Shown: one piece after another, positions 6,878 to 31,746 of the stretch
Layout: each line of letters opens with the position of its first letter
Position numbering within the stretch: the first letter of the stretch is position 1
The notes under the pieces: model-generated
Told to the model about the DNA's origin: nothing
The model's input: only the letters and a program-made list of their open reading frames with translations
Database searches by the model: none
Translations under genes and position numbers: made by a program
NCBI GenBank assembly: GCA_903813345.2
Contig: CAIIXF020000008.1
Coordinates: forward strand, 5,033,341 to 5,097,340
Direction: 5' to 3'
Source: Owenia fusiformis
Taxonomy: Eukaryota > Annelida > Polychaeta > Sabellida > Oweniidae
DNA: 64,000 nucleotides

Positions 6878-7965
6878 TTAACAATCATTTCTTTTGTAAT
6901 CACCTCTTGCTCCACCTGTCTTTTTCATTAGTTTCACATCTTGTATTATCATATCCCTTGTGACAGCCTTACACATATCATAAATGGTAAGAGCCGCAAC
7001 TGAAACTGAGGCTAGAGCCTCCATTTCAACTCCGGTTTTCCCAACAGTGTGAACTTCACCTGTTATCAAAATCTCATGATTTTCCTCATTGAACTCAAAC
7101 CATATGTCTGATTTTGTGATTGGTATAGCATGGCAAAGAGGGACCAAATCAGAGGTTTTCTTAGCAGCCATTATTCCAGCTATTTGAGCAACAGTTAAGA
7201 CATCACCTTTCTTCATTTTATTTTCTCGGACAAGGTGATATGCCTTTTCCCCAAGGACGATTGTTCCTTTTGCTATAGCAACACGATGTGTATCGTCTTT
7301 GTTCCCAACATTCACCATATTGGCCTTCCCTTGTTCATCTGTATGTGTTAACTTATTCTCTTCCTCTTCATCATATTTGTTAACACCAATATTTCCTACT
7401 GACTGGCCAAGTTGGTTAACCAACCCACCAAAATTACTCCTTATACCAGGGATTAATCCACCAGGTGGTGCCACTGAGCCAGTTTGCTCTATATTACCAC
7501 TAGGTGTCTCCCAATACTTCATTGTATCCTCATCTAGCCAATCATGACGGTCAGAATATTCATTTTTCTCATCTTGTCCTTTATTGCATGTTTTGTCACC
7601 ATCAACCTTTTTGCTATAGGTTCTATATTGATGAACTGCATAGGTTTTGTTCAAAGTGTTGCCTAACAACTTAACACATTGAATATTCAACAATGATGCA
7701 GTGGCTATATTCATTGGAGGCCTGTTGTTTATATCAATGTTCTGCTCCTTTTGATTATTGCTGATTATCATTTTTGAATCACTTATATCACAGATTTTAA
7801 CAATGCTTTTCTTATTTACATTTCTACACTGACATTTTTTGTCACTATAGTTCTGAAGTTTCATGATGTCATAATCACCGCGTTTCGTAGAATTCTGGTT
7901 AAATTCTGATGTCATCCAACTCGGAGGAATGTTATAGATGGCACTTGATGTCTTGGTGTATGCAT
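6878..7965 (-). CDS. MOCS1: MOCS1 exon 10: linker plus MoaC domain (MOCS1B)
   Basis: This large terminal exon (acceptor TTTCCAG, phase 1) encodes about 210 linker residues, then Moa[45 protein letters not shown], and [20 protein letters not shown] with the catalytic lysine of the family, ending [12 protein letters not shown]. In most MoaC proteins the PLCH motif is followed by Pro; here it is Ala. The linker is longer than in the human protein. It holds an internal Met (codon at 7714-7712) that starts a presequence-like stretch ending QYRTYSKK, a good R-3 processing site. MOCS1B makes cPMP from the MoaA product. Confidence 0.92.
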
Positions 7966-16900: not shown

Positions 16901-19900
16901 TTGATCTTGCATAATGAACATTTTTTTCAGTGTTTGACATCTTGATTTTTGGTGTTTGATGTTTAATTCTCCCTTCGCAGTGTGATAGATGTGTAACTGC
17001 TAACATCTAACACTGAAGATTTATTTTTTAACAACATTACTAAAATTGAATAAAAACTTTGAAAGTTTGAATTAAAAAGTGTAATATCAAACAAGAAATA
17101 TGGATTATCAAACAAAGAATTGAAAAAATTGGACAAAAATTTGAAAGTTTGAATTGATAAGTGAAAATTCAAACAAGAAAATTTAAATTTCAAACATGAA
17201 ATTGAAAACATTGAATAAAGATGCTAAAATAATGCCATAGCCATCTACCAAATGCCAAACACTGACCACTGTCCACAAGAAAGATAGAGATTTAACAATA
17301 TGTCACCACTTGTAGTGGTGACATAACAATGAAGTTTTGTTTAAATACTCCTTGCACTATCTGCAGTAAAATTTCTGTCACTTTTAACAAAACTCTAATT
17401 CATTATAATATTTCTATCAGGTATGTTGCTGTTTAGTGTGTTTTTGCTACTACTCTGGTCCCAGGTTGCAAATGCAGAAGGTTAGTAATAACATGCTTCT
17501 AATTTTCATAACCGGTGTTATTCACATTTATAGTTATTAACAGATTTGTTATATCTTCTATTATATATAACAGTAAACAAATTATTGCCACCATAAGTTC
17601 AGGAATAAGGTAACAATATGCAATATGCATTAATCAAATGCATCTTGTTTTATACCATTAGGTGTAATGAAATCCGACCAAGACAAGCCAGACTTGTGCC
17701 TCCTGCCACCAAAGGTTGGTAAATGTAAGGCACGTCTTGAGAGATACTACTACGATGATGAGACTAAAGAGTGCACACTCTTCTATTATGGAGGGTGTGA
17801 TGCAAATGAAAATAACTTTGAGAAAAAGGAAGATTGTGAAAAACGATGTGGTGGTGAGTTAAAAACTGCATATTTTTTTACATTAAAGAGGCAAACGTGT
17901 ACTACAACCCAAATCAACTTTTGCAAGATTCATGAATCAAAATTAGAGTAAAGTAGTAAATGGAGTACAAATGATCTCTATTCTTAACAAAGTCAATAGG
18001 CACATTGCCCTCTTTGCCGATTTGCTACCTAGCAATGAGGAAGTCAAGACAGGTACCTCTTCAAAATGTTACAGCTTTGGGATGCTTTTTCCTAAAACTG
18101 AAGATTATATCTTTGGATTAACAGATTATATATTATACGAGTAAATGTTGCATACATTTATAGAATCTGAATTTTAATTTAGATACCGGTAAGTTGGTTT
18201 GCCCACCAGTCCCAGTTGGGAAGTCTGGAGCATGTGTTGAAAGCTGTGGTGATGGTTGCACAGGGGGACAATTGTGCTGCAGTAATGGCTGTGGACATAG
18301 CTGCATGGATGGTATGTACATGAAAATTAGATAACTTCATACTTAAGAGTGCAATACCATTGCTTGGATCTATTCAATTCAGACAAGAGTTCTATCCCAT
18401 TTAAAGAAATTAAGTTTTTTCTTCATTTGTGACATTGTAAAATCTCACATTGTAAAAGCTACTTAACTATAAAGCTAAGCTACTGATAATTTCTCAAAGA
18501 ATATTTTGAGAAACAATGGCTTCAACTTTAGGAATCAAAAAGCCGATCCCACGAACCCCTTTACTTGGATGCCCACCTGTCATAGGGAAAGGGTCCTGTA
18601 AAGTAGAAAAGTGTGGGGTGATTGATGGGCAACCAAAGTGCCCTGAAGGACAATTGTGTTGCTACAATGGATGCACATATACCTGTGTGGAAGGTTAGGA
18701 ACAACGTTTTGAACTAGATATTTCAAATTAAAATATTTTAAACTTGTTTTTAGTCTCCCATGACATTCATGGCCTAACACTCTATTTCACGAAAGAGTAT
18801 TCATGTTGGGAAAGATAGTATTCAAGAGTTTTATGTAAGACTATAATGCATATTTTATAACACTAGGGGTTGCTACAGAAAAACCTGAGATCTGCTACAT
18901 GCCAGCAAAGGTTGGTAAATGTAAAGCAAAGATTGAGAAGTACTACTTTGATGCTGAAATGAATGAGTGTACACTGTTCTATTATGGAGGCTGTGATGCA
19001 AATGAAAACAACTTTGATACCAAGGAAGATTGTGAAAAACGGTGTTCAGGTAGTGTGCATATAGGTAAGTAACACAGATGGTAGTTAAAATGACATTGTT
19101 GAGTTTAGTTAATTTAAACAAATAAAAGAGGCCTAAGGCCCATATCATTTATAAAAATAGAATATATATTTACCAATCAATTCAGTAATTCCTGTCTTGC
19201 TTATTAAATGCCCTAAGGCAGAATGCTGCAAGTAACACATTCTTTAATCTCTACTTTTGTTGACATTAAAATTTTGTCATGAGTTTCAACATATTTTGAT
19301 GTCTGCCAATTTAAATTTAAAGTTCATGATAGGAAAATATTAACCTATTAGTTAACAATCTTGAGAATAACTTTTGGGTATATTATTGCCGAAATATCGA
19401 TATAATCAACAGAACAACCAACCTCCAGAATTAAACACAATCAATTCATGGCTAGTGAGGGGAATCCCCGTTGCTATCCTATGGTATAGAGCCTATTTTA
19501 ACAATAGTTTTACTTCTAATAATTATGTTGCAATTTGTTATATGCTTCTGAAATATTTTTTAGAACCGTAGAGTCCCCTTAGGAAGTCTTTTCTATCTAA
19601 TGTTTTTCTTTTTTTAAATTGTGCAGATATTTGCAACCTTCCAAATGAAAAATCCAAAAGGAAGTGTTCAAAAATTCAGAAAACTAGATACTTCTATAAT
19701 GCTGACAGTATGATGTGTGAGGAGTTCTGTGGTGAAGGATTAAACAACTTTGAGAGTAAAGAGATCTGTGAAAAAACATGTGGTAAATATTCGAAATTTT
19801 TGTACAGATGTATTATCAATTTATTACAAATCAATTTCCTGCTTCAAATGGGTAACTTTGAATCAAACAATTCATTTTTTAAATATAAATGGGCCTCATG

Positions 19901-22900
19901 CCAGTCTTAAGCTGCTAAATGAACACAGTATTGTCTGAAGAGTTTTATTATGATAATGTCATATGACTCCTATGCTGCAGGACATTCACTTTGTATTACC
20001 TAAATTTTGTTCGGAAAGTTGTACTACAATATAAAAATTCTTTTCTTTATTCTATGACTTTAATCATACAATTTTAACAGATGCATGTTCACAACCTAAA
20101 GTGATCGGTCCATGTAAAGCAGCTTTTCCCCGTTACTTCTATAACAGTGAGATGGAACAGTGTAAGAAGTTCACATATGGAGGATGCGGAGGCAACAAGA
20201 ACAATTTCCAAACGGAAGATCAGTGTGAAATACATTGTTAGTTCTTTTATACTATTTCAAAAGTGCATGTTCAATGCTCAAACAAGTTCAACTTAATCTA
20301 AAACACCATCTGTAAAGAGCAAAATGGTATATACATGTCATGTAAAAACATGTCAGTCTTTAAAGAATCAATTAAAACACATAAACTTATCCATCTATGA
20401 ATTCTTACTCAACATGTACAATATCCCATGGTCTTATGGATTTGATGGTAATGCCATAAGACAGTAGAGGGAAACAGGTCATTCAAACATGTTTCTTGAA
20501 TATTTACTTAACCATATTTCATTATAGTAATTTAGAACTAACACATTTATAATATACTGTACAGTAAGTATATTTCTCATTGCAGGTAAGCCTACATGTG
20601 AATACTACTGCCGAAGATGTGTGAATGCTAAAAAGCTTTTGACAAAGTGCAGTGGCTGCAAACAAAGGAAAATGAGAGGATATACAAAATGTGCAGCGTG
20701 CGTTAAGAGTGGAAAAGGAAAATATGCCAAATTAAACTACCAATGTTTCAACTGCATGAATTAAGCACTAACCTTTACTTTACTGTTTCAAATTAAAATT
20801 CAATAAAGATCAACCTTACCATTATATTTATACATGATGTTTCTTAAAAAGCCTATCCTCATCTTATAAGCTTAACATTTTGAAAGTGATTTGTTTAAAC
20901 TAAAAAACTAAAAGATTGAAGACTCTGAATCTTTATGTTTAAAGGACATAAGCAACATGGACCTTGTGACTTTGATATTGGACCCTGCTGTCCCACATCA
21001 TTTTAGGCTAAATGGTATGCCTTGTACATATCTGCAACTATTCATGATGTCCTAGTATTGCTCTTCTTGTTGTCATTGTAGGCTTGCTTGACAGCATATA
21101 TATAGCTTGCTTTTACACAGTTATGTTTGCTTGACAATGCTGCAGCTGGCTTGATATATAAACTTCCCATATCTTGTACAGTATGCTGTATACACCAACA
21201 ACCTGACATCCAAACAATGCAATTCAGATCCCCCAGTGTCAGAAGTATCTGTTCATTGTGGGTTGCTGTAACAAATTATGCCAAAACATTCATTTAAGCA
21301 ATGGTGAAAGTTCATGTATTGAGCCAACCAAAAGTGCAAACATTTTTATTATGCAAGAAATGCAAGTTTTTATTTATCACATTCTCTGTATTTTGTATTC
21401 ATGCAAAGTTTTTATTCTTCATTCTCTGTATTATGTTTCTTAGTAAGAAAGCTGCTGTATATGACAATGTTAACCACTATTACCTAAAATAAAATGTTCA
21501 ACTCTTGATGACAAAATATTACATGTTCATATTCATTCAAACTACTATATTAAGATAAAATGTCCAAAGCTCTCTTGAGGCTAAATGAAAGCTATTCTTG
21601 TTCATTGATCAGGTCACTGGTTTTTGCTCAACAGTGTGCCTTATACAATTAGTTAAATAGTTATTTGCAAAAGCAGCTCCTACTTATCACATCCGCCATA
21701 GTTGAGCATAGTAAAACATCTTCATCTTAACCCACTCTGGGTTCTTCAGGACAGTTGAGCAGTGTGTGTGTGTGTAGAAAATGTCCGTTGTGCTTCCTCT
21801 GGTGTGTTCGAGCATAACATCAGCTGCCTCTAGTCAGATCGACTGACAAAACAACCTTTTTTGGGGTTGTCTAGTTGGCCAAGAGGGCTTGAGCGCCAGC
21901 ACGTTTGAGCTAGGCGATTGAGCGCCGTAACCACGAGGTTGCGAGTTCCAGACGCGTGTGCTTCTTGTGTTTATTCATTAAAAAATACACAACTCAAGGA
22001 GTCTAGATGAGACCCCAACTACCAAACACAGCGATTCTGGTTTGATACAAGAACTCTCCAACTCTGTATGCAAAGGCACACGGCTCTGGAGATCAATTCT
22101 ACAATGTCCCAAACACATTCTGCACCACACTAAAAGTAAAGAAATCAAAGAAAACAAAGGGACAGAACAACTAATACACATTCTGAGGTAGTTGAATCAA
22201 TGAAATAGATACACTGGTTAGGCCAGGGGGAAATAACAATTAGTCTCAAAGAAATGAAAAGTTGAAAAAAGTCTCACCTTTTCTTGTTGCGCTGTGCCAA
22301 ACATCCTTTAATCATTTATATCCCTGATATACGTAGTATTAACTTGAAATGTTTTTAAAATAATCCGCGGCTTTGAACTAAGTTACACTTTGACAGTGAT
22401 CACAATCCATGATCTGATTCTTTTAAACACCCAGATGATGATTTTGCAGTACAAGTTCACAATGAAAACAGCATCTTTTGTGTTATGGATTAAATAATTT
22501 GATACCACTTATCTCCATTATTCTTCAGTTTCTATGGGACATTTATACAAGTTCTAAGGTAAACAACACTTACCCGTTTTTACAAGTTTGAATGATGAAT
22601 TCTGTAACTGAAAAAGTCAATTCTATGAGAAATCTATGTGATTTCTTTGCAATTTTAGGTGAAAATGAGAAAAGGTAAATCAAAAATCAAATGTGGCAAA
22701 TATTTAGAAAGTCATTTATTCCATCATACAACCACTGTCATAGAGCAAATAAAATAGCAGAAGAACAAATTGAAATATATTTTGGGTGAATTCCTACCAC
22801 TAATAGAGCTACTGAAACCATTAAATTACGAAGGTAAAACTGATTATTGATCATGGTTCAAGAAAATCTGTTAATTTTGTAGGAAATGTGGTGGAAATTC

Positions 22901-25900
22901 ATCAGACTCTGCAAATCCTTCTGTCTATGTTCTGGGAAAATGGAAAACTGACGGGAGTGATAAACTGAACTCAATGTACCATGAACATTAAGTCAAGGAC
23001 ACAGTCAATGGTTTGTTTATAAAGGCCATTTAATTCATATCCAGATAAACTGTATTAGTTCTACTGAATTAACAAGCATCATAACAAACATTTGTGTAGG
23101 AATACAAGGTAACTAGGCTAAATTGTACTTTTCACTTTGAAATCTATGCCAAAATGTTTGATATTGTTAAACTGTCTTTAAAACAATACAAACATAATTT
23201 ACCAATTACTGAAGCTTACATTTCACTGATTACTCTTAATTAAAAGTCACTAAACAATTGTTATTTTTTGTTTGAACTTGTGATAATCATTTTTCAAAAT
23301 TGTTTCTGTAGTTGTCCTGTCACCATAATTCTTGTGTGATACATCATTAGAAACTTAATCAATCAGAAAAAGGAATTCATTAAATCATTCTAGCTATAGT
23401 ACGCAAAACATTTGGATAAAGATATACATCAAGCATCGATTGTTTGACAGGTAAGTTAACAATGACAGGCTAGAAGTGATTTTAATCCTTCTGATAATTT
23501 CTAATGAGTCAGAATGACACTAATGTTTGAGAACAAAGAAACAGATGATATTAAATGAATAAAATTTGCCATATACAGAATGTCACAGATGAATTCTATG
23601 TCTATGTATTGTAGCATTTTGTTTAAATATTGCAAATCAATATTCAATGGAGTGCAGTGCAGTTATATGTGAATAATTGGCATACTGCAAAAACATTTTG
23701 TCACTAATACAATTGGATAGTTGGATAAATAAACAAGTATGTATCATAACAGAGAATAAAGCGACACATCTGATTCTATTAAATGTGAGCAATATCACTA
23801 AAAATTGTGTCTTAAAAGTAACATCTTACACAAATTGAATTGGAATGTTTATCAAAATTAAAGATTGTGATTTAACATATTTTCATAGTTCAATAAAGTT
23901 TTCATTACTTATAACACAACTCTAATTCATCATAATATTTCTATCAGGTATGTTGTTGTTTGGTGTGTTTTCACTACTACTCTGGTCCCAGGTTGCAAAT
24001 GCTGAAGGTTGGTGACAATATGCTTTTAATTTTCAATTACAGTTTTATTTACTTCTTTAGTTATTATCACATAATGTTATATCTTTTATATATTATCATG
24101 ACTTATACACTGACAGAAGAACTTCTTTATTTAGATGAGTTGATTTGCCCACCTGTGAAAGAGGGTATGGTTGGGGCATGTGCCAATTTATGTGGTGATG
24201 ATTGCACAGGGGGACAATTGTGCTGCAGTAATGGCTGTGGACATAGATGCATGGATGGTATGTACATGTACATGAATATATATAATATGAATATATCACT
24301 TACCAATTTCCAATATCAGTAGTAGCATGTCTATATCAAAGAATCATATGACCTGGAAAATTCCCTCTCAACCAGGATCCTCTGATCTTTGGAAATTAAG
24401 TAACTTTAAAATATCAACCAAACTTTTAAAAAAACTACTAGTAGACTATCATACATAATACACAGATTGTCATATGAATAAATAAGGCAGCTGATCAAGT
24501 TCCATACAAATTTTATTTGCTGGGACAACAAATAGCGACAATAAGGTCAGGAATGAGGTAACAATATGCATTAATCAAAGACATTATGTTTAATACCATT
24601 AGGTGTAATAAAACCTACTCCACCTAAGCCGGACTTGTGCCTCCTGCCATCAAAGGTTGGTAAATGTAAGGCACGTCTTGAAAGATACTACTACGATAAT
24701 GAGACTAAAGAGTGCAAACTCTTCTATTACGGAGGGTGTGACGCAAATGAAAATAACTTTGAGAAAAAGGAAGATTGTGAAAAACGATGTGGTGGTGAGT
24801 TTAGACTGCATTATAATGTATACGTTAATGTAAAATAGGCAAGTATGAACTATAATCCAAATTAACAAATTTTCAACAAGTAAAATCATTCTGTGAAAAA
24901 TATGCAAGAAACAAAAAATACAGGTGCCTACAGGTACTAAGACAACCGCCAATATGTGAGCTTTTAACGAAATGAAAAGGGGAAAATAGCTAAAATTGAG
25001 GCAGTTGAGACAGGTATACCTCTTCAAAATGTTACTTAGAGATGCTTTTTCCTAAAACTGAAGATTACATCCCAATGGACAGATGGAGGGAAGTCTGTAT
25101 AATATCTTCTTAGATCTTTGGCTTAATAGGTGATAAAAGATATCAAATGGACATTTTGTATTTTGCAAAAGTGACCAAATGACTTATTCTTGCAGATGTA
25201 GATATGTGCAACCTTCCTAAGAAACAGGGCAAAAAGAAATGTGCTGAGGATAAAGTAGAGAGATACTTCTATAATTCTGGCAGTATGGCGTGTGAGATGT
25301 TCAGTTACAGTGGATGCGGAGGAGGCAACCTAAACAACTTTGGGAATTCAGTAACTTGCAAGCAAACTTGCGGTAGGTATTCAAAATCATGTGTTAGTTA
25401 GTTAACTATGAATTAGATGGATTAATAAACTGATTCTTAACTATAATTTTGGGATAGTGGGAGACATGGTAATATATTTTACCTTTAAATCCTCATATAT
25501 TTAGAGATTATATTGATGTCATTAAAGACCTCTATGAATTTGGATCATTACAGTAGTTAATGTTGCATAATATGATACAATTATTGCTCAATGGGGAAAT
25601 TGGGAAATTCAGGCCAACTCTTGTATCACCAAAGCATGATAATCTCTCAGATACATATCTAGTTAATGAAAACACAGAATGAAGCTAACCCAGCCTATCG
25701 TCAGGCGCAATATTGGTCAATATTTGAGGTCTACTTTTGGTCTACTCATGAGGCATACTTCTGGTCTTCTTTTGGTTTTTCTCTGTGTTAAATCCCCATA
25801 GTCAGGCGCGTTTCAAATATTTAAATTAAGCCAAAAGTAGACCAGAAGTAGACCTCATTTAATGACCTCATCAGGTTTATCAGGTCTATATTTGAGGTCT

Positions 25901-28900
25901 AGACCTCATTTAAGCCTCAACTATCTGTATATCAGGTCTATATTTGAGGTATACTTTTGGTCTACGCCTTATTTGAGGTTCACTATTGGTTTTCAGGTCT
26001 ACTTCTCTTCTGCTTTTGGTATACACCTTACATTAAGGCACATTTCAATTATGGAAATTAAGCCTTAAGGTCTACTTTTGGTCTAGACCTCATTTCAGGT
26101 ACAAGCCTCATATACCTGTAAGTAAGGTCAGGTCATGTTTTGTTGTTTCAAAGTAGAAAAGTAGTTAGTACATATCAGTACCCTCCATAGTTGTTAAATA
26201 AATTGCATTTATTTTGAATTGCTGTGTTGTTTTCTAGGATTAACTTGTCTCATGGATAAGATACAGATCTATGAACACATTAGAAAGATGAAGCAAAAAT
26301 TACACAGTATTCTTATATAAATTATATGTAGGCTTCTAATATGATGTATTTTTGTTTCATCATTTAAATTTAACAATATTTCAATATTTTATTATTTTCA
26401 GACATCCTTCTTTAGGTTTCCCAGATTTTGATTATTTTTTTAAGTTCTGATAAAAACCATTAATAGGGAGTTGAAAATACAGTTTACTGGTCTGTTAACC
26501 TAATATATTATAATCTGTCTCCTTCGTGATTCTGACAAAATACTACAGTAAGTGTGGCTTTTTCAGTTTTCTAAGTTTTTAAAAAAATTCTATGTTTATC
26601 AGGTCTAGATTTGGTCATTTTATAAATGTTTAAGTTTTTAAGGCGCAGTTTTGGTCTATACGCCTGTCAGTGAGGTTTATTCTAAAATGTTCTTAGTTTA
26701 TCAGGTCTAGATTTGGTCATTTTGAAAATTGTTCAAGTTTTTCAGGCGCACTTTTGGTCTATACGCCTTACAGTGAGGTCTATTCTAAAATCTTCTAAGT
26801 AAATGTGGTTTAGAATTGGTTTTTAAGGCGCACTTTTGGTCTATACGCCTGAAAATAAGGTCTATAACTGGAATTATTGTGAGTAAATGAGGCTAGGTTT
26901 TGGTCTAAGCCTTAAAAATACCTGTAAAAGAGGCATACTTTTAGTCTAGACCTGAAAGTAAGGCGCATTTAAGGTTAACTTTTGGTCTACGCCTCAAAAA
27001 CCTGATGATAGGCTGGGAAGGGCTGGTTAGAAAAAGTCAGTCCACCTCAATAGGGATCAAACCCACGACCCCTCGCTTACAAGTAGGGCTGGCACGGAAC
27101 GGAATCGGAACGGAATTCGGAACTTGGCTTCGGAACTTTCGGCTAAATCGGACAGTTCGGACAATAATTCCGTTCCGTGCCAGCCCTACTTACAAGATTA
27201 ACTCTTGTATCTTCTAAGCATTATATTCTCACCTATACTTATCTACATGTTATTTGGTACTGTAGTAAAAAAATGGAATAATGTATTAGTAATCATGTTT
27301 TATTCAAAGTCATCTAAAAAATAATCACTTTTACTTAATTTTACTTAAACAGATGCATGCTCCAAGCCTAAAGTGATTGGTCCTTGCAAAGCAGCTTTTC
27401 CAAGATACTTCTACAGCATACACACAGGGCAGTGTGAAAATTTCTTGTATGGAGGATGTAGGGGCAACAACAACAACTTTCAGTCTAAGGAGCAGTGTGA
27501 AGGATATTGTAAGAACATTCATATCGTTACACTTCTACATGCTCAAATAGAACTTTAATTTCTTAGCATAGAACATATTTTACGAATCAATATGGGCTAT
27601 TTAAATGAACCACAATTTCCTTATTCGAATATTTTTATGATCACCTCTTCACCTCTTCAATACCTTTCAAAGTAATATTATTTACAAGTTACTCTGAAAC
27701 ATAGGATCAAATCTTATATTAAGGGCTTATGTAAAAAAGTCACTCCACCCCAGTGGGAATCGAACAAACAACCTGTCGATTACTTCCCGCTTACATGCCA
27801 GATGCAAGTTATTCTTGATCATGACCCATCATGAACCATTTAACAATAAACATTATTCAAAAAATTCTGAAGAGAATCAGTCTATGTTTGATAAATTGCT
27901 GACATTCTAAAAAAGACAAATGTAGTATTTAACAATTTTGTCTTAGTTTTATCTCAGTATAGTATTTTGAAACTGGTTTTACTGAGAATACGATAAATTT
28001 GATAATCCAATTGTTTTAAAGGAATATTCTTCCCTGCTGCAAACATTCTTTTATATGTAGGTAACATTTGTATGTACTCAGTTAGATATGATAATTTGGT
28101 GAAATGGCAAGCATTTTTTCGAAATTTCAACTTTTTTTCAAAAAATATCTTTAACAACTTTGTAAATCAGAAGATTCTAATGATTAATATTTTTTAAATA
28201 CATGGGACCTTTAAGCAAACTATTGCATTAACAGATCAGGGGCTCTTCTAATGGCTAATACTAGACTTTGTTTGGATAATTCTTTCATTTATTTATCTAC
28301 ATATTTTCAATGATAGCACACCTTAACTTCTAATTTCTAGGTCCAGTTCAAAGTATTAAATAAAATACATGTAGAGTGCAACCTTTAGAATTCTGGTTTA
28401 CCGTAGATTTCATGTGAAAATCATTTCACTTGATAATAAAACTATGCACCTATTGTAATTGTAACTTCAATTTACTCATGTGCTGTCAGAATGTATTATA
28501 AATAGGGGAGAGAATGTATTATAAATAGGGGAGAGAATGTATTATAGGGGAGAGAATGTATTATAAATAGGGGAGAGAATGTATTATAAATAGGGGAGAG
28601 AATGTATTATAAATAGGGGAGAGAATGTATTATAAATAGGGGAATGTATTATAAATAGGGGAGAGAATGATAATTTTTAAGGCAATTGCGAAATTCTTTA
28701 ATAAGGTGGCAATATAAAGTAGATAAACATTCATTTAATTGCCTGAACAGACTTGACATTTCATGCAGCAGTATTTTCTATTGTAGGTAAACCAACATGC
28801 GAGTACTACTGCCAAAAATGTAAGCAGGGTAAAAAGTTTTTGGCGAGGTGCAGTGGCTGCAAACAGAGAAAAATTAAGGACTACACAAAATGTGCTGCCT

Positions 28901-31746
28901 GCGTCATGTCTGGGAAAGGCAAATTTGACTACCAATGCTTTAACTGCGAGAAATAATCAATCAATGTTGGATTCGGATTTAATGTTCCAAATCAAAATTT
29001 AATAAACATCAAAACTGTTGCAAGCTTTAGAAAAAATATAGCAGTTTCTTCATCAAACAAATGTTTAAGTGGTACCTATTACACATCAGGTTTAAATTGT
29101 TCATTTTGTTAAATTGTTTCATCTAAATTCCTTCATAGCGAAGGATTTTGTGCCCGTGTAGCACTTCAAAACCTTACAATCTTAGCATATTCCATCTAAT
29201 TTAAAAGAATAGTAAGAGGCAATGGAAGCCCTGCTTCTATCCTATCAACGTCAAAACTAAAAAATGCCATGCCTCGTTACCTAGCAATTTCGTTTACCGA
29301 CTCAGGTTCAGACTTCTTTTGCAAGCTCACCTTTATGCACATAATTTTAAATGGGTTGCAAATCCAAAATGTTTATGTGACAATTTAAACCAGACAACTT
29401 TACATTTCCTGTTGAGATGTCCACTACTGACTGAACAGAGAACAACACTACTTGCAAGACTGGAGATGATGGGGATCCGTACTCACTATGATCGACTTAC
29501 TTAATGCTTGATCAAGCCCAGTTTTTACTTTATCAAGATAAAAAATTTCTAGCAGATGTTAATGAAAAACTAATGAATATAGTAGCATTAACATCCACCA
29601 TGGTTTAGATCTATTGAACATATAATCAATTCTAATATCATACAGCTGGAATCCCTCTGGCCAATGGAATAAACCTTACATATAATTAAGATATATAAGC
29701 GTAGTGAAATGACACAGTTTTGACACTTCTTTTCAAATTTAACGATAACATGACATGAAAAAAACTCATTGTGTAAAAGTTACAGATTCCATTTAAAATT
29801 TCTGTCAATGTCTTTCGACTTTGGCAATTGTTTAGTTTGTTAATATGTTTATATATGATGATTAATAAAAAGAAAACTATTATGAATACTTATTTTGACC
29901 TCAGCTATCTAACCATTAGACACTCGCAGTGCATCATGGGAGGTTCCAATACAGAATATTCCTCCACCTTTTTCAACACAAACAAATGTTTATTCCTTTA
30001 TAAACATGTAGTATATAAAGGGCAATAAATATATACATACATACAGTAGTATTATATGAATACAAAAAGTATTTCTTCCAACTGAACTATGAAGACCAAT
30101 GACAGAAAGCCTTTAGATTTTCACTTGGGTATCACCATCAATTTCCAAAAAGCAGCCTGCAGGTATGAACAGGAAGTGAATATTGATATTAATGTACAAT
30201 GCATATACATCAATGATCCTACTAAAACATATTCAGCCGATTAATAAGTACATAAGGAAAACATCGAAGTATATCATTCTGTTATTCAGTCAGAGTGTCA
30301 GTCAAATTTTAAGGAGGAATTTCACCTTATTATCACTCATCTATTTTCCTTTCAAAGATCCCCCAGAATTTTGTAATTTGAGACATCTCCTACAGGAGAT
30401 TTTGGAAGACGCGTTGTGCATTTATTAGAGTGAATGTGGCAAACTACTTACTTGAAATGCAGTTGCATAAGCCATACTATAGATTTAATGCGAAAAATGA
30501 ACTTCTCTTTCAGTTTATGATAATAATCAAGGAGCAGATAAAGCCAGACTAGGCCTCGACACGTATGCACACAAAGAATACTAAGATCAAGTTGAATTTT
30601 TTCTCTTGCTTTATCTTAGGTAGATATTGACAAGTGGGTAATTATTTCTTTTGATCAAAACATTTTTTTTTGTTGGTTTTAACTTCGATAATGCTTCAAA
30701 AACCTTGAATAAGTTATGTGCTTTCATTTTGTACTGCAGACGGCAGAGTAACCATGCATTTCTACGTTGATTTAAAACTGAATTTGCAAATGCTTTTAGA
30801 TCTGGTACATTCATTTCTCACATGTTTGACAGTTTTGTACATACATGTAGACCGAGGGATTCAAAGTACTATATAGCTAAATATAGAAGTGACTTCTATA
30901 TTGAGCTCAATAGTACCTTTCCCTTAGCCTATGGTTTTACCCCCATGAATGTGGGGTAGTCCAACAACATTACACCAGTCTAATCTCCATGATCATTTTG
31001 CCTTTGATGCGTTAATTTATCTTATGAATACATACACACCATCCCATATCCCCCTTAGACCCTATTGATGCATAATTACAAAAATATTGGAGACAGGTTC
31101 GGAATATAACGAAAATGTCGGTCAGTTCTGGTAACATCAAAATTGCAAATCGTATCAGAAATAAACCGTCATTGCGGCACTGCATTAACAAACAGTAGGT
31201 TTGCAATTAATAACTATTTTGTGTTTATACACGCGCTATAGTAAAGAACGCCATTATTGAGTTTAACGACAATGAACTAGAATGTGGGGGTGCTTTGCCT
31301 TTTTTGTGCATGGTTGACGATTTAGTGCTTAGGGGTTATCCAACAGACCGAATATGATATTTGGTCTGAATTTATTCAGCAGACGAAGGATACAGTCTAG
31401 GGGTTCCCAGATTACTGGATTGTTCAATCTTGGGATTATTATAACCCCACACTGATTCAAAATGACCATTTACTGTACACATTGTACTGTACAACATTGC
31501 TATAATTTCGAGCTGACTTATTTCATAGATCAGCTGATGCGAAAAATTAAAAATAAAAATTTTCAAAGTTTTATAGTTTTGAACTTCAATTTTAATACGT
31601 TTAAGTGAACTCACCTCTATAATTTCCACGTCTTTATGTGATGGAAGTATTGTAGAACAGTAAGCGCGAGTCCTTTGAACAGATGCATTCCGTAAAGTGT
31701 ATGATAATCTTGAAAAACTATATATAAATCTACTGCCAGAATTCAT
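6878..31746 (-). CDS. MOCS1: MOCS1: molybdenum cofactor biosynthesis protein 1 (MoaA and MoaC activities), bicistronic
   Basis: The gene has ten coding exons on the minus strand: 31615-31746, 15263-15404, 14046-14213, 11351-11583, 10761-10832, 10189-10341, 9671-9781, 9249-9369, 8842-8897 and 6878-7965. Every junction keeps frame. The MoaA form is a predicted 395 residues. It is a radical-SAM enzyme that, with MoaC, converts GTP to cyclic pyranopterin monophosphate in mitochondria. Visible are Cx3Cx2C for the SAM cluster (Cys88, 92, 95), GGEPL (134-138), the C-terminal cluster Cys322-x2-Cys325-x13-Cys339, and a terminal Gly-Gly before the stop. If an internal donor is used (exon end at 8850), or if exon 9 is skipped, MoaA fuses in frame to a linker and MoaC (755 or 739 residues). 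Both forms match the known animal splice pattern. Linking exon 1 across 16 kb is inferred from phase, Kozak and presequence; the other exons are secure. Two inhibitor genes lie inside intron 1 on the other strand. Confidence 0.88.
7617..7714 (-). other. Internal mitochondrial presequence-like segment in the MOCS1A-MOCS1B linker
   Basis: Starting at an internal Met, about 34 residues have no Asp or Glu, are rich in Ala, Leu, Asn, Lys and Thr, and end in R-T-Y followed by S, the consensus for matrix peptidase cleavage one residue after Tyr. It lies between the two domains, where it could free MoaC from the fusion or start a separately imported MoaC protein. Inferred from composition and motif only. 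Confidence 0.45.
8221..8800. repeat. 18/19-bp minisatellite in the MOCS1 intron next to the alternative exon
   Basis: About 580 bp consist of alternating variants of two units, ATTGCATTTATTGCAACA (18 bp) and ATTGCATTTATTGTATACA (19 bp). The words CAATTG and GTATAC are self-complementary, so the array can fold on either strand. Several spurious open frames (Ile/Tyr/Cys/His-rich) cross it and are not genes. It fills most of the intron between exons 9 and 10 of MOCS1. Confidence 0.85.
8842..8897 (-). CDS. MOCS1: MOCS1 exon 9: MOCS1A C-terminus with Gly-Gly and stop; alternative donor
   Basis: The exon encodes [18 protein letters not shown] and a TGA at 8842-8844. The double Gly is essential to MOCS1A activity in this family. 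Within the last codons lies a donor GTGGGT (exon end at 8850) that removes Gly-Gly and the stop and joins in frame to exon 10. A second possible donor (GTGAGG, exon end at 8846) would shift frame and hit a stop within a dozen codons of exon 10. This is the switch between MoaA-only and fusion transcripts. A minisatellite begins about 40 bp downstream in the intron. Confidence 0.88.
9249..9369 (-). CDS. MOCS1: MOCS1 exon 8: third cluster Cys and RKKKQHA
   Basis: It encodes [15 protein letters not shown] and later [14 protein letters not shown], and ends in phase 1 after one base of the next Gly codon (donor GTATGA). The acceptor (GCATTTAAG) has an unusually weak pyrimidine tract. The phase-1 end allows either exon 9 or direct joining to exon 10. 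Confidence 0.9.
9671..9781 (-). CDS. MOCS1: MOCS1 exon 7: C-terminal Fe-S cluster motif
   Basis: This 37-codon, phase 0-0 exon contains [20 protein letters not shown]. Its two cysteines (322 and 325), with Cys339 in the next exon, bind the GTP-side [4Fe-4S] cluster in this family. The acceptor is TTTTGCAG and the donor GTAAGG. Confidence 0.92.
10189..10341 (-). CDS. MOCS1: MOCS1 exon 6: [15 protein letters not shown] segment
   Basis: This 51-codon, phase 0-0 exon encodes [15 protein letters not shown] and MVSYQEMLN, strongly conserved in animal MOCS1A. The acceptor is TATACAG and the donor GTAATG. Confidence 0.9.
10761..10832 (-). CDS. MOCS1: MOCS1 exon 5 (24 codons)
   Basis: This small phase-0 exon encodes [20 protein letters not shown] and four more residues. 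It is flanked by TTTTCAG and GTATGA. The [10 protein letters not shown] string is a strong MOCS1A signature. Confidence 0.88.
11351..11583 (-). CDS. MOCS1: MOCS1 exon 4: MoaA barrel core
   Basis: It encodes [14 protein letters not shown] and [19 protein letters not shown], both characteristic of MoaA/MOCS1A. Phase 1 in (after ACAG), phase 0 out (AAG before GTAAAT). It joins exon 5 as [12 protein letters not shown], as in other animals. Confidence 0.9.
11674..11821 (+). mobile_element. MITE, 'ATGTCACCACC' family, copy A
   Basis: It begins near GCAAAATGTCATCACCTGCC and ends GGTGGTGACATAA. The ends share inverted ATGTCAxCACC. The interior repeats ACCAACTACCGAATGCCAAA-like words. It lies in a MOCS1 intron. 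Related copies lie near 16.45-17.33, 46.49-46.63, 53.96-54.12 and 57.96-58.11 kb. Confidence 0.6.
12850..14045. other. MOCS1 intron 3 sequence
   Basis: No exon other than the flanking MOCS1 exons is visible. The stretch contains the 300-bp imperfect palindrome listed separately and a short (TA)n run near 13380-13392. Confidence 0.5.
13005..13320. repeat. Imperfect inverted repeat, about 110-bp arms
   Basis: The left arm (about 13005-13115) and right arm (about 13200-13320) are diverged reverse complements sharing ACAAAGGAAATTTTGGTTGA-type sequence next to CAATATT and GAACAAAA words. It is an old foldback element in a MOCS1 intron, with no coding content. Confidence 0.5.
14046..14213 (-). CDS. 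MOCS1: MOCS1 exon 3: radical-SAM motif and GGEPL
   Basis: It completes [13 protein letters not shown] across the junction and encodes the strand carrying [16 protein letters not shown], the SAM-binding GGE motif. It ends in phase 1 at a GTGATT donor. The long open frame running past the donor is intronic. Confidence 0.9.
14214..15262. other. MOCS1 intron 2 sequence
   Basis: I see no further exon, RNA or structured repeat here. Confidence 0.45.
15263..15404 (-). CDS. MOCS1: MOCS1 exon 2: start of the MoaA domain
   Basis: The acceptor TTTCAG precedes 15404 and the donor GTAAGT follows 15263, splitting a Cys codon after its first base. The exon encodes [20 protein letters not shown] followed by CNLR. 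This is the animal MOCS1A N-terminal signature leading into the SAM-cluster motif, whose last cysteines come from the next exon. Confidence 0.9.
16452..17328 (+). mobile_element. 'ATGTCACCACC' MITE family, expanded copy B
   Basis: The left end (ATGCAAAATGTCACAACCCG) and right end (CCACTTGTAGTGGTGACATA) match the short family members, but here they are about 880 bp apart. The interior is packed with short degenerate words around TTCAAATT, GAAAATTCAAAC and their complements, which look amplified. It lies just upstream of the first inhibitor gene. Confidence 0.5.
17423..17480 (+). CDS. Inhibitor 1 exon 1: signal peptide
   Basis: It encodes [19 protein letters not shown] and the first base of a Gly codon; donor GTTAGT. 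The ATG follows ATTTCTATCAG-GT, which looks like an acceptor, so a non-coding 5' exon probably lies upstream. The paralogue at 23950 has the same arrangement. Confidence 0.8.
17423..20764 (+). CDS. Secreted Kunitz/WAP inhibitor 1 (409 residues, 8 coding exons)
   Basis: Exons: 17423-17480, 17662-17853, 18183-18311, 18532-18693, 18867-19064, 19627-19782, 20081-20236 and 20586-20764. All introns are phase 1. Order: signal peptide (1-19, ending VANAE), Kunitz 1 (20-83), WAP 1 (84-126), WAP 2 (127-180), Kunitz 2 (181-246), degenerate Kunitz 3 (247-298), Kunitz 4 (299-350), and a 9-Cys tail (351-409). Kunitz 1, 2 and 4 have six cysteines at the usual spacing and Lys at P1 (GKCKA, GPCKA), so trypsin-like serine proteases are the expected targets. 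Kunitz 3 lacks the usual third-to-fourth Cys loop. A secreted defence, digestive or shell-matrix inhibitor is plausible, but the role cannot be told from sequence. Both sides of every exon obey GT-AG. It lies inside MOCS1 intron 1 on the opposite strand. Confidence 0.85.
17662..17853 (+). CDS. Inhibitor 1 exon 2: Kunitz domain 1
   Basis: The cysteine spacing is C-x8-C-x15-C-x7-C-x12-C-x3-C, exactly canonical. P1 is Lys (VGKCKA) and FYYGGC is intact. Donor GTGAGT after TGTGGTG. It is nearly identical to the Kunitz exon of the paralogue at 24603-24794. Confidence 0.9.
18183..18311 (+). CDS. Inhibitor 1 exon 3: WAP domain 1
   Basis: It has eight cysteines in the four-disulfide-core pattern, including [16 protein letters not shown]. 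Acceptor TTTAG, donor GTATGT. It is closely related to the first domain of the paralogue (24135-24257). Confidence 0.88.
18532..18693 (+). CDS. Inhibitor 1 exon 4: WAP domain 2
   Basis: It has eight cysteines in four-disulfide-core order ([16 protein letters not shown]), preceded by a Pro-rich spacer ([11 protein letters not shown]). Acceptor CTTTAG, donor GTTAGG. It has no counterpart in the second inhibitor gene. Confidence 0.88.
18867..19064 (+). CDS. Inhibitor 1 exon 5: Kunitz domain 2, two usable donors
   Basis: Canonical Kunitz with P1 Lys (VGKCKAK) and FYYGGC. It can end at GTAAGT (19064) or, 15 bp earlier, at GTAGTG (19049). Both keep phase 1 and differ by five residues (GSVHI). The first donor is the stronger. 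No counterpart exists in the second gene. Confidence 0.85.
19627..19782 (+). CDS. Inhibitor 1 exon 6: degenerate Kunitz domain 3
   Basis: Six cysteines remain, but only three residues separate Cys3 and Cys4 (CEEFC) instead of seven, so the FxYxGC core is deleted. P1 is Ser (KCSKI). Compared with the paralogous exon (25196-25372) the difference is a short in-frame loss. The reading frame and splice sites are intact, so it is probably translated but not an inhibitor of the usual kind. Confidence 0.82.
20081..20236 (+). CDS. Inhibitor 1 exon 7: Kunitz domain 4
   Basis: Very canonical ([21 protein letters not shown]). The last Cys is split by the intron (T then GT in the next exon); donor GTTAGT. 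If the intron is retained, the codons read TGT TAG, closing the protein exactly after the sixth Cys. Confidence 0.87.
20586..20764 (+). CDS. Inhibitor 1 exon 8: 9-cysteine C-terminal tail
   Basis: After completing the last Kunitz Cys, the exon encodes 58 basic residues with nine cysteines: C-x3-C-x2-C-x9-C-x2-C-x10-C-x2-C-x14-C-x2-C. Motifs shared with the paralogue are [15 protein letters not shown] and YQCFNC. I do not recognise the domain. Its four CxxC pairs resemble metal-binding knuckles, but in a secreted protein they are likely disulfide-bonded. Confidence 0.82.
20802..20807 (+). terminator. Polyadenylation signal of inhibitor 1
   Basis: AATAAA lies 38 bp after the stop, in AT-rich sequence (AATTCAATAAAGATC). 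The same position relative to the stop is seen in inhibitor 2. Confidence 0.6.
20808..23949. other. Spacer between the two inhibitor genes (within MOCS1 intron 1)
   Basis: There is no coding exon I can support. It contains a short (GT)n run near 21763-21774 and a tRNA-like SINE relic (21862-21990). A non-coding 5' exon of inhibitor 2 probably lies in its last few hundred bases, but I cannot place it. Confidence 0.5.
21862..21990 (+). mobile_element. tRNA-derived SINE relic
   Basis: An A-box-like TAGTTGGCCAAGAGG is followed by GAGCGCC words and a B-box-like GGTTGCGAGTTC about 65 bp later, the layout of a Leu/Ser-type tRNA head. No CCA end or functional cloverleaf is seen. A tRNA pseudogene is the alternative. 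Confidence 0.4.
23950..24007 (+). CDS. Inhibitor 2 exon 1: signal peptide
   Basis: It encodes [19 protein letters not shown]; donor GTTGGT in phase 1. It differs from inhibitor 1 at two residues, and the upstream ATAATATTTCTATCAG is the same as in inhibitor 1. Confidence 0.8.
23950..28956 (+). CDS. Secreted Kunitz/WAP inhibitor 2 (291 residues, 6 coding exons)
   Basis: Exons: 23950-24007, 24135-24257, 24603-24794, 25196-25372, 27353-27508 and 28787-28956; all introns are phase 1. Order: signal peptide (1-19), WAP (20-60), Kunitz A (61-124), Kunitz B (125-183), Kunitz C (184-235), 9-Cys tail (236-291). It is a tandem paralogue of inhibitor 1; exon and intron sequences are alike around the first Kunitz exon. 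Differences: the WAP domain comes before the first Kunitz domain instead of after it, and WAP 2 and Kunitz 2 are absent. P1 is Lys in Kunitz A and C and Ala in Kunitz B (KKCAED). Introns 4 and 5 have grown by transposon insertion and a minisatellite. Expected to be secreted; the target protease is unknown. Confidence 0.85.
24135..24257 (+). CDS. Inhibitor 2 exon 2: WAP domain
   Basis: Eight cysteines in four-disulfide-core order ([16 protein letters not shown]). Acceptor TTTAG, donor GTATGT. It is the clear counterpart of exon 3 of inhibitor 1, but placed first. Confidence 0.88.
24603..24794 (+). CDS. Inhibitor 2 exon 3: Kunitz domain A
   Basis: Canonical six-Cys spacing, P1 Lys (VGKCKA), FYYGGC, donor GTGAGT. 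Nearly identical to exon 2 of inhibitor 1, with a different Pro-rich lead (KPTPPKPD). Confidence 0.9.
25196..25372 (+). CDS. Inhibitor 2 exon 4: Kunitz domain B
   Basis: Six cysteines with longer loops ([22 protein letters not shown]) and P1 Ala (KKCAED). It is the intact counterpart of the degenerate domain 3 of inhibitor 1. Acceptor TTGCAG, donor GTAGGT. Confidence 0.86.
25691..27017. mobile_element. 1.3-kb non-autonomous element in intron 4 of inhibitor 2
   Basis: The ends are inverted: CCCAGCCTATCGTCAGG (from about 25689) and CCTGATGATAGGCTGGG (27001-27017). The interior is made of dozens of short words, AGGTCTACTTTTGGTCT, GAGGTCTAGACCTCA and relatives, in both orientations, separated by AT-rich stretches. 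No transposase and no clear target duplication are present. Spurious frames inside are not genes. Confidence 0.6.
27022..27235 (-). mobile_element. tRNA-derived SINE relic, interrupted by a hAT MITE
   Basis: Read on the minus strand, it has CTTGTAAGCGAGGGGTCGTG followed by B-box GGTTTGATCCC and the tail GGTGGACTGACTTTTTCT. A second piece of the same family lies at 27722-27815. It was split by the 105-bp MITE at 27084-27188. Confidence 0.5.
27084..27188. mobile_element. hAT-type MITE, 105 bp, with perfect 8-bp duplication
   Basis: The target site CTTACAAG is duplicated exactly at 27076-27083 and 27189-27196. The terminal repeats read TAGGGCTGGCACGGAACGGA on the left and its near-perfect reverse complement on the right. 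The 8-bp duplication and end sequence fit the hAT superfamily. It is non-coding and probably young, because the duplication is intact. Confidence 0.85.
27353..27508 (+). CDS. Inhibitor 2 exon 5: Kunitz domain C
   Basis: Canonical ([22 protein letters not shown]), P1 Lys. The last Cys is split by the intron; donor GTAAGA. Counterpart of exon 7 of inhibitor 1. Confidence 0.88.
27722..27815 (-). mobile_element. tRNA-derived SINE fragment
   Basis: On the minus strand it carries a GTTCGATTCCCACTGGGGTG-type B-box region followed by GAGTGACTTTTTT, the same family as the relic at 27022-27235. It lies in intron 5 of inhibitor 2. Confidence 0.45.
28490..28665. repeat. 23-bp minisatellite, 8 copies
   Basis: The unit is AATGTATTATAAATAGGGGA followed by GAG. 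Eight copies are almost identical; two are shortened by 4 bp. It lies in the last intron of inhibitor 2, about 120 bp before its terminal exon. Confidence 0.9.
28787..28956 (+). CDS. Inhibitor 2 exon 6: 9-cysteine C-terminal tail
   Basis: It has the same nine-cysteine plan as in inhibitor 1, three residues shorter before the last CxxC pair (x11 instead of x14). [28 protein letters not shown] and YQCFNC are conserved. Acceptor TTGTAG, stop TAA. Confidence 0.84.
29001..29006 (+). terminator. Polyadenylation signal of inhibitor 2
   Basis: AATAAA, 45 bp after the stop, in a context (AAATTTAATAAACATC) like that of inhibitor 1. Confidence 0.6.
29290..29502 (+). pseudogene. Fragment of a non-LTR retrotransposon reverse transcriptase (C-terminal end)
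   Basis: One frame reads [17 protein letters not shown] and then a zinc-knuckle-like [21 protein letters not shown], the usual ending of LINE polyproteins (C-x-C-x8-H-x4-C with the TxxHFLLxC core). Only about 70 residues remain, with no upstream polymerase motifs, so this is a 5'-truncated relic. The clade cannot be told. Confidence 0.6.
29515..31614. other. MOCS1 intron 1, proximal part
   Basis: I find no exon, RNA or organised repeat here. The short reading frames show no recognisable domain. Confidence 0.4.
31615..31746 (-). CDS. MOCS1: MOCS1 exon 1: mitochondrial presequence
   Basis: These 44 codons start at an ATG in an ideal context (CACCATGA) and end at a strong donor GTGAGT in phase 0, matching the phase-0 acceptor of exon 2 at 15404. 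The peptide is rich in Ser and Arg ([20 protein letters not shown]) with almost no acidic residues until its end, as expected of a matrix-targeting presequence. The assignment rests on phase, strand, content and the lack of any better 5' exon; it is not proven by homology. Confidence 0.65.

Follow-up and report, generated by a model that had tools for sequence, protein, structure and literature searches.

We find that a cysteine-rich tail on the last exon of two protease-inhibitor genes from the annelid Owenia fusiformis also ends genes of the same genome that resemble glutamate receptors. This distribution suggests a C-terminal module that secreted proteins can exchange. Our preferred reading, which we hold tentatively and at a probability of about 0.42, is that it is a bona fide exon-borne domain, shuffled on phase-1 exons between Kunitz/WAP and Venus-flytrap (VFT) genes, with a disulfide-bonded fold and a role in attachment or retention. 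What makes the tail interesting is not so much its nine cysteines as the fact that inhibitors of proteases and soluble relatives of glutamate receptors share it. If true, one animal would hold a traceable case in which a lineage of sensory receptors and a lineage of protease inhibitors came to share a domain by exon exchange. Its genome contains candidates for donor and recipient, a paralogue in which no tail was detected, and a copy in decay.

Two inhibitor genes end in a tail exon

The window, meaning the whole stretch of 64,000 nucleotides that was analysed, holds two inhibitor genes (Table 1). Pfam recognises four Kunitz_BPTI and two WAP stretches in the gene 1 model, and three Kunitz and one WAP stretches in that of gene 2. 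Both tail exons have GT/AG splice sites, start in phase 1, and are open to a TAA stop; the donors before them are gttagt (gene 1) and gtaaga (gene 2). Each tail exon opens with GT, the second and third bases of a TGT (Cys) codon whose T is the last base of the preceding Kunitz exon (20236 or 27508). Thus, the junction is in phase 1, and the codon of the last Kunitz cysteine is divided between two exons.

Direct reading of these junctions and open frames bears out the proposal of the earlier note that the tail is a module of its own, encoded by a single exon that begins in phase 1. It also gives the nine cysteines at exactly the spacing claimed (3,2,9,2,10,2,14,2 in gene 1 and 3,2,9,2,10,2,11,2 in gene 2), and all four motifs quoted as common to the paralogues are present. 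An AATAAA lies 38 nt past the gene 1 stop and 45 nt past the gene 2 stop. As a family-wide test of tails, poly(A) signals were set aside as weak: of the 13 copies, 7 have AATAAA or ATTAAA after the stop, within the 71 to 150 nt available, and 0.31 of random 150-nt windows contain one of the two.

In the last intron of gene 2, about eight copies of a 23-base unit form a tandem array (28488-28669) that lies some 0.1 kb upstream of the tail exon. A 103-base tandem repeat (2.1 copies, 26588-26800) occupies part of the intron between Kunitz domains 2 and 3 of the same gene, where it is surrounded by repeats of the AGGTCTA/TTGGTCTA type. Elsewhere in the window, an ORF of 345 aa at 6878-7915 (-) encodes a complete MoaC domain (Pfam E 1.9e-55) and may belong to a gene for molybdenum cofactor biosynthesis.

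Table 1. Exons of the two inhibitor genes, in positions of the window.
Feature	Position	Strand	Basis or remark
Gene 1 signal-peptide exon (putative), ATG 17423	17421..17480	+	Hydrophobic stretch read by eye
Gene 1 Kunitz domain 1	17662..17853	+	Pfam Kunitz_BPTI
Gene 1 WAP domain 1	18183..18311	+	Pfam WAP
Gene 1 WAP domain 2	18532..18693	+	Pfam WAP
Gene 1 Kunitz domain 2	18867..19049	+	Pfam; donor picked by phase, another GT few bases downstream
Gene 1 Kunitz domain 3, diverged	19627..19782	+	Pfam
Gene 1 Kunitz domain 4	20081..20236	+	Last Cys codon finished by tail exon
Gene 1 terminal tail exon, nine-cysteine, basic, stop TAA 20762-20764	20586..20764	+	Open frame, acceptor ttgcag
Gene 2 signal-peptide exon (putative), ATG 23950	23948..24007	+	Sequence reading
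Gene 2 WAP domain	24135..24257	+	Pfam
Gene 2 Kunitz domain 1	24603..24794	+	Pfam
Gene 2 Kunitz domain 2	25196..25372	+	Pfam
Gene 2 Kunitz domain 3	27353..27508	+	Last Cys codon finished by tail exon
Gene 2 terminal tail exon, nine-cysteine, basic, stop TAA 28954-28956	28787..28956	+	Open frame, acceptor ttgtag

The tails form a genome-wide family

We searched the window's own genome (498 Mb) with four different tails; the copy counts are lower bounds. At least 13 intact copies were found, on contigs C2, C4, C5, C8, and C115. The window pair and one further copy lie on C8; C4, C2, and C115 have two each, and C5 has two Kunitz-linked and two VFT-linked copies. Hence the description of the tail as shared by both inhibitor genes is correct for the pair and understates the family.

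All 13 tails, without exception, share eight cysteines arranged as four CxxC pairs, together with the FN of CFNC. Every one of the exons starts in phase 1 and reaches its stop 1 to 6 residues past the last cysteine. Net charge is +14 and +10 in the window tails and positive in all 13 copies, nine of which are mildly basic (+3 to +7). We also detected a degraded VFT-tail copy (L044, C5:41855700-41865600), in which stop-bearing pieces of the tail lie about 1.3 kb apart. Near it, another VFT copy (L048, C5:41869500-41879400) has matches to exons x1-x3 and no later exons within 9.9 kb.

Four of the tail genes are Kunitz/WAP genes: the window pair (C8:5.05 Mb) and a pair at C5:18.76 Mb. A genome search with Kunitz exons (E up to 1e-6) gave 37 matches, seven of them inside these four genes. 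A dense Kunitz cluster at C8:16858003-16868943 accounts for 13 of the 37 exon matches, and no tail was found there. At the other Kunitz loci the four tail searches likewise found no tail, although a strongly diverged one could escape them; on these searches, the tail is not a general feature of Kunitz genes.

Nine Venus-flytrap genes end in the tail

The earlier note had treated the tail as a feature of inhibitors. We find instead that 9 of the 13 intact copies end genes with mGluR-like VFT exons. Exon-by-exon comparison gives the order x1 to x7, then tail, within each stretch examined. At L011, x6, x7, and the tail were found; at L010, only x7 and the tail lie within 9.9 kb, with an x1 match in the same orientation some 19 kb upstream. 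In all nine genes the junction between x7 and the tail has GT/AG splice sites in phase 1, and the stop falls 2 to 6 residues beyond the last tail cysteine.

The VFT identity rests on a gene model of L017, to which the other eight genes were assigned by exon similarity. This model matches Pfam ANF_receptor (E 1.9e-36) and, as its nearest solved relative, mGluR7 (E 9.4e-32); single exons of L009 also match ANF_receptor. Compared with mGluR7, the Ser, Thr, Asp, and Tyr of what we take to be the amino-acid clamp look kept in L017, while the last Asp is replaced by Glu.

Signal-peptide-like starts are visible in the four VFT-tail genes that were looked at. None of the 79 genome matches to 7tm_3 (E up to 0.01) falls at the nine VFT-tail loci, and none of the 49 genome matches to NCD3G (E up to 10) falls at these loci or on tail exons. 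Given the absence of both kinds of match, the nine genes are best read as encoding soluble, secreted receptor ectodomains. They make up a family of nine or more genes that encode apparently soluble VFT proteins of mGluR type with an alternative C-terminal domain, a family which surveys of class C receptors that demand a 7-TM would overlook.

The tail compared with NCD3G

The place of the tail in the VFT genes raises the alternative that it is a strongly diverged NCD3G (PF07562). Receptors without a 7-TM would have kept a remodelled CRD as a dimer or docking piece coupled to the VFT, and Kunitz/WAP genes would later have captured its exon. We consider this somewhat unlikely. The tail directly follows a class C VFT in nine genes, which is NCD3G's own place, and like NCD3G it is a small nine-cysteine extracellular domain with a PxSxC-motif start. 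Exon x7 ends in LPRSECPK or similar, resembling the NCD3G start PxSxCS in receptors of the same genome; the comparison set comprised 24 class C receptors of this genome, from 26 NCD3G matches over the cut-off. The two phmmer alignments listed, both to mGluR7, enter the CRD, up to PCCWTC / PKCWDC, and the CW-x-C and later CxxC of NCD3G can be aligned with the tail. Furthermore, the LB2 cysteine of the 'CI' motif, which we take to be the interdomain cysteine, is kept in all seven x2 exons found. In CaSR, a disulfide between CRD and LB2 (C236-C561) is reported (PMC4977154).

Profile comparison gives a divided answer. When x6, x7, and tail were aligned by hhalign with the LBD end and NCD3G of those receptors, the probability was 80, with E 1.4e-5 and a score of 34.7, compared with 23.7 without the tail. 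This anchored set comprised eight of the nine VFT genes, L010, for which no x6 lies within its 9.9 kb, being excluded. When all tail columns were shuffled, none of 150 replicates reached this score. However, it was reached by 2 of 150 shuffles when the cysteine columns were kept, and by 23 of 800 when cysteine and gap-rich columns were kept. The tail alone gave a probability of 3-7%, and its score was reached by 75 of 400 cysteine-kept shuffles.

Other features separate the two domains. The CC pair and CCWxCxxC signature of NCD3G, as seen in the 24 receptors of this genome, are missing from all 13 tails, which have four CxxC instead; the receptors follow the pattern C-x3-C ... CCWxCxxC ... CxxC ... 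C. Pfam NCD3G touches one of 12 tails (E 0.059) and none of six x7+tail proteins (from six of the nine VFT genes), so that no match exceeds the cut-off. The tail ends its protein, whereas NCD3G leads to a 7-TM. The tail also occurs on Kunitz/WAP proteins, and in those four genes it is not placed after a VFT domain. A plain NCD3G filing was rejected, since it fails both the profile cut-off and the cysteine pattern. Because CCWxCxxC is absent and cysteine-kept shuffles reach the anchored score, we do not file the tail as NCD3G; homology between the two is only weakly indicated.

Domain and fold searches give no significant match

The profile and structure checks proposed in the earlier note returned no significant match in Pfam or PDB. 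For the two window tails, Pfam gave nothing near any cut-off. When 12 tail copies were searched singly, 20 families were touched, every one with a best E of at least 0.05. PDB sequence searches with the tails gave chance-level matches (best E 0.28 and 0.16). AlphaFold models of the tails had a mean pLDDT of 61.9 and 60.6 (from 12- and 13-row alignments), and Foldseek searches with them against PDB and viral models gave nothing significant. Over the sequence and structure searches together, matches to ovotransferrin, Nup153, and cytochrome were rejected as chance-level. Given the low confidence of the models, a new fold cannot be claimed from them. A pattern scan of the viral collection gave 221 pattern matches with no tail relative among them. 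We found no report of the tail, or of its sharing between Kunitz and VFT proteins, in titles and the starts of abstracts, a partial coverage of the literature that makes for weak evidence of absence. The tail is apparently an undescribed cysteine-rich extracellular module.

The invariance of the eight cysteines as four CxxC pairs in all 13 copies would also suit a zinc-binding mini-domain, with two Zn(Cys)4 sites like those of double zinc ribbons. The double zinc ribbon family (DZR, PF12773) touches the most tails of any Pfam family (5 of 12, best E 0.05). Nevertheless, its score stays well below the cut-off (10.1 vs 27.3 bits), and Foldseek gives no ribbon, albeit on poor AlphaFold models. 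The signal-peptide-like starts and the disulfide-rich neighbouring domains make an oxidised tail likelier, and we regard zinc binding as unlikely.

Cysteine number varies around a core of eight

An odd, ninth cysteine could instead form an intermolecular disulfide, making the tail a covalent dimerisation piece. In favor of this, 10 of the 13 tails have nine cysteines, including two (L009 and L043) that are without cysteine 1 and have one extra cysteine elsewhere, which brings them to nine again. But three tails (L016, L017, and L018) have eight in total, and the VFT genes bring an additional cysteine in x7. Parity is thus not kept across the family, and a dimerisation role for the ninth cysteine seems quite unlikely. 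The idea that an odd cysteine count is conserved likewise gives way to a core of eight, with cysteine 1 present in 8 of the 13 copies and missing from the other five. On our preferred reading, the eight core cysteines in their four CxxC pairs would make a compact, mainly disulfide-bonded fold, and the extra cysteine would be a variable addition.

Probable constraint on the window tails

The two window tails differ by 7, 11, and 20 substitutions at codon positions 1, 2, and 3 over 55 codons compared; third positions thus hold 20 of the 38 differences. Estimates of dN/dS are 0.157 (NG86), 0.10 (ML), and 0.67 (YN00), a spread that makes the window-pair estimate rough. In gap-tolerant alignments the non-coding flanks of the pair are 75.7% and 77.4% identical, against 80.5% for the exon. 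The claim that selection keeps both copies is probably right: third-position bias and the low NG86 and ML values agree with it, while the YN00 value and flanks almost as similar as the exons mean that constraint on the pair is not firmly measured. We consider such constraint likely.

It is highly improbable that the tail exons are pseudogenised or unspliced leftovers: although an in-frame TAG lies inside gttagt, the penultimate-exon donor of gene 1 (20237-20242), so that a transcript retaining this intron would encode an inhibitor that stops at the last cysteine of Kunitz domain 4 and lacks the tail, and although the flanks of the pair are so alike, the frames are open, the junctions conserved, and third positions biased, 13 copies are intact, and the degraded L044 shows what loss looks like.

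Possible exchange between inhibitor and VFT genes

Phase-1 exon shuffling may have carried the tail between Kunitz/WAP and VFT genes. The tail starts in phase 1 in both architectures, which would make exon transfer easy. One of the VFT genes, L009 (C8:4.54 Mb), lies on the window's contig, 0.5 Mb from the window genes, and of the tails outside Kunitz genes, its own is closest to that of gene 1 (63% identity, E 4.4e-9). In a tree of the 13 tails, L009 groups with the window Kunitz tails at 89/88, where no branch reached the program's bar. This grouping is suggestive of transfer between architectures. An AU test did not reject separate clades of Kunitz and VFT tails (p 0.162), so the tree settles neither the number nor the direction of transfers.

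A possible role in attachment or retention

A close VFT paralogue at C5:1.21 Mb (L045/L046, C5:1210700-1230500) has matches to x1-x7, with x1 55% identical. Where the nine VFT-tail genes have their x7 donor (GTAAGA, GTAAGT, or GTATGT), this gene has A|GTGGAA. It reads on to ...PESQCSTSGSSAIYMTGVLFAMISTLWIIF*, a hydrophobic end preceded by small residues, and no tail was detected over the 19.8 kb examined. This end resembles a membrane anchor, of the GPI kind or another, although the short spacer ahead of the hydrophobic stretch counts against a GPI reading.

Attachment or retention is the most economical guess for the role of the tail, because a GPI-like end takes its position in this close paralogue and because the tails are net basic. 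The tail may hold an inhibitor, or an amino-acid-binding VFT, at the surface or in the matrix. The support for this consists of analogy and one paralogue, and the charge of most tails is mild. A more elaborate scenario, which we think unlikely, is that an exon from the CRD position of truncated, secreted mGluR-like proteins turned into a mobile module, a cysteine-rich domain of receptor origin that ends both soluble amino-acid-binding VFTs and inhibitors. Being interchangeable with a GPI end, it would place both at one site, for example a secreted tube, mucus, or cell coat.

Comparison with known systems

A close parallel to the VFT-tail genes is SmGBP of Schistosoma mansoni, described as a truncated mGluR without CRD and 7-TM that is encoded as such in the genome (PMC3206071). 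Like the nine VFT-tail genes, SmGBP is an mGluR-like VFT protein without a 7-TM; where it has no CRD, the VFT-tail genes carry a different cysteine-rich tail. Native SmGBP is reported with the membrane fraction despite having no 7-TM (PMC3206071).

The window genes resemble Kunitz/WAP multidomain inhibitors in combining several domains of both kinds (four Kunitz and two WAP in gene 1, three and one in gene 2), and differ from them in adding the tail domain. Among inhibitors, TFPI offers an analogy, which implies no homology: TFPI alpha ends in a charged tail, and a GPI end is found in TFPI beta (PMC3556101). A charged tail and a GPI-like end would be similar alternatives in the Owenia VFT family. 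The account given there does not present the tail of TFPI alpha as a cysteine-rich domain, which the Owenia tail is (PMC3556101).
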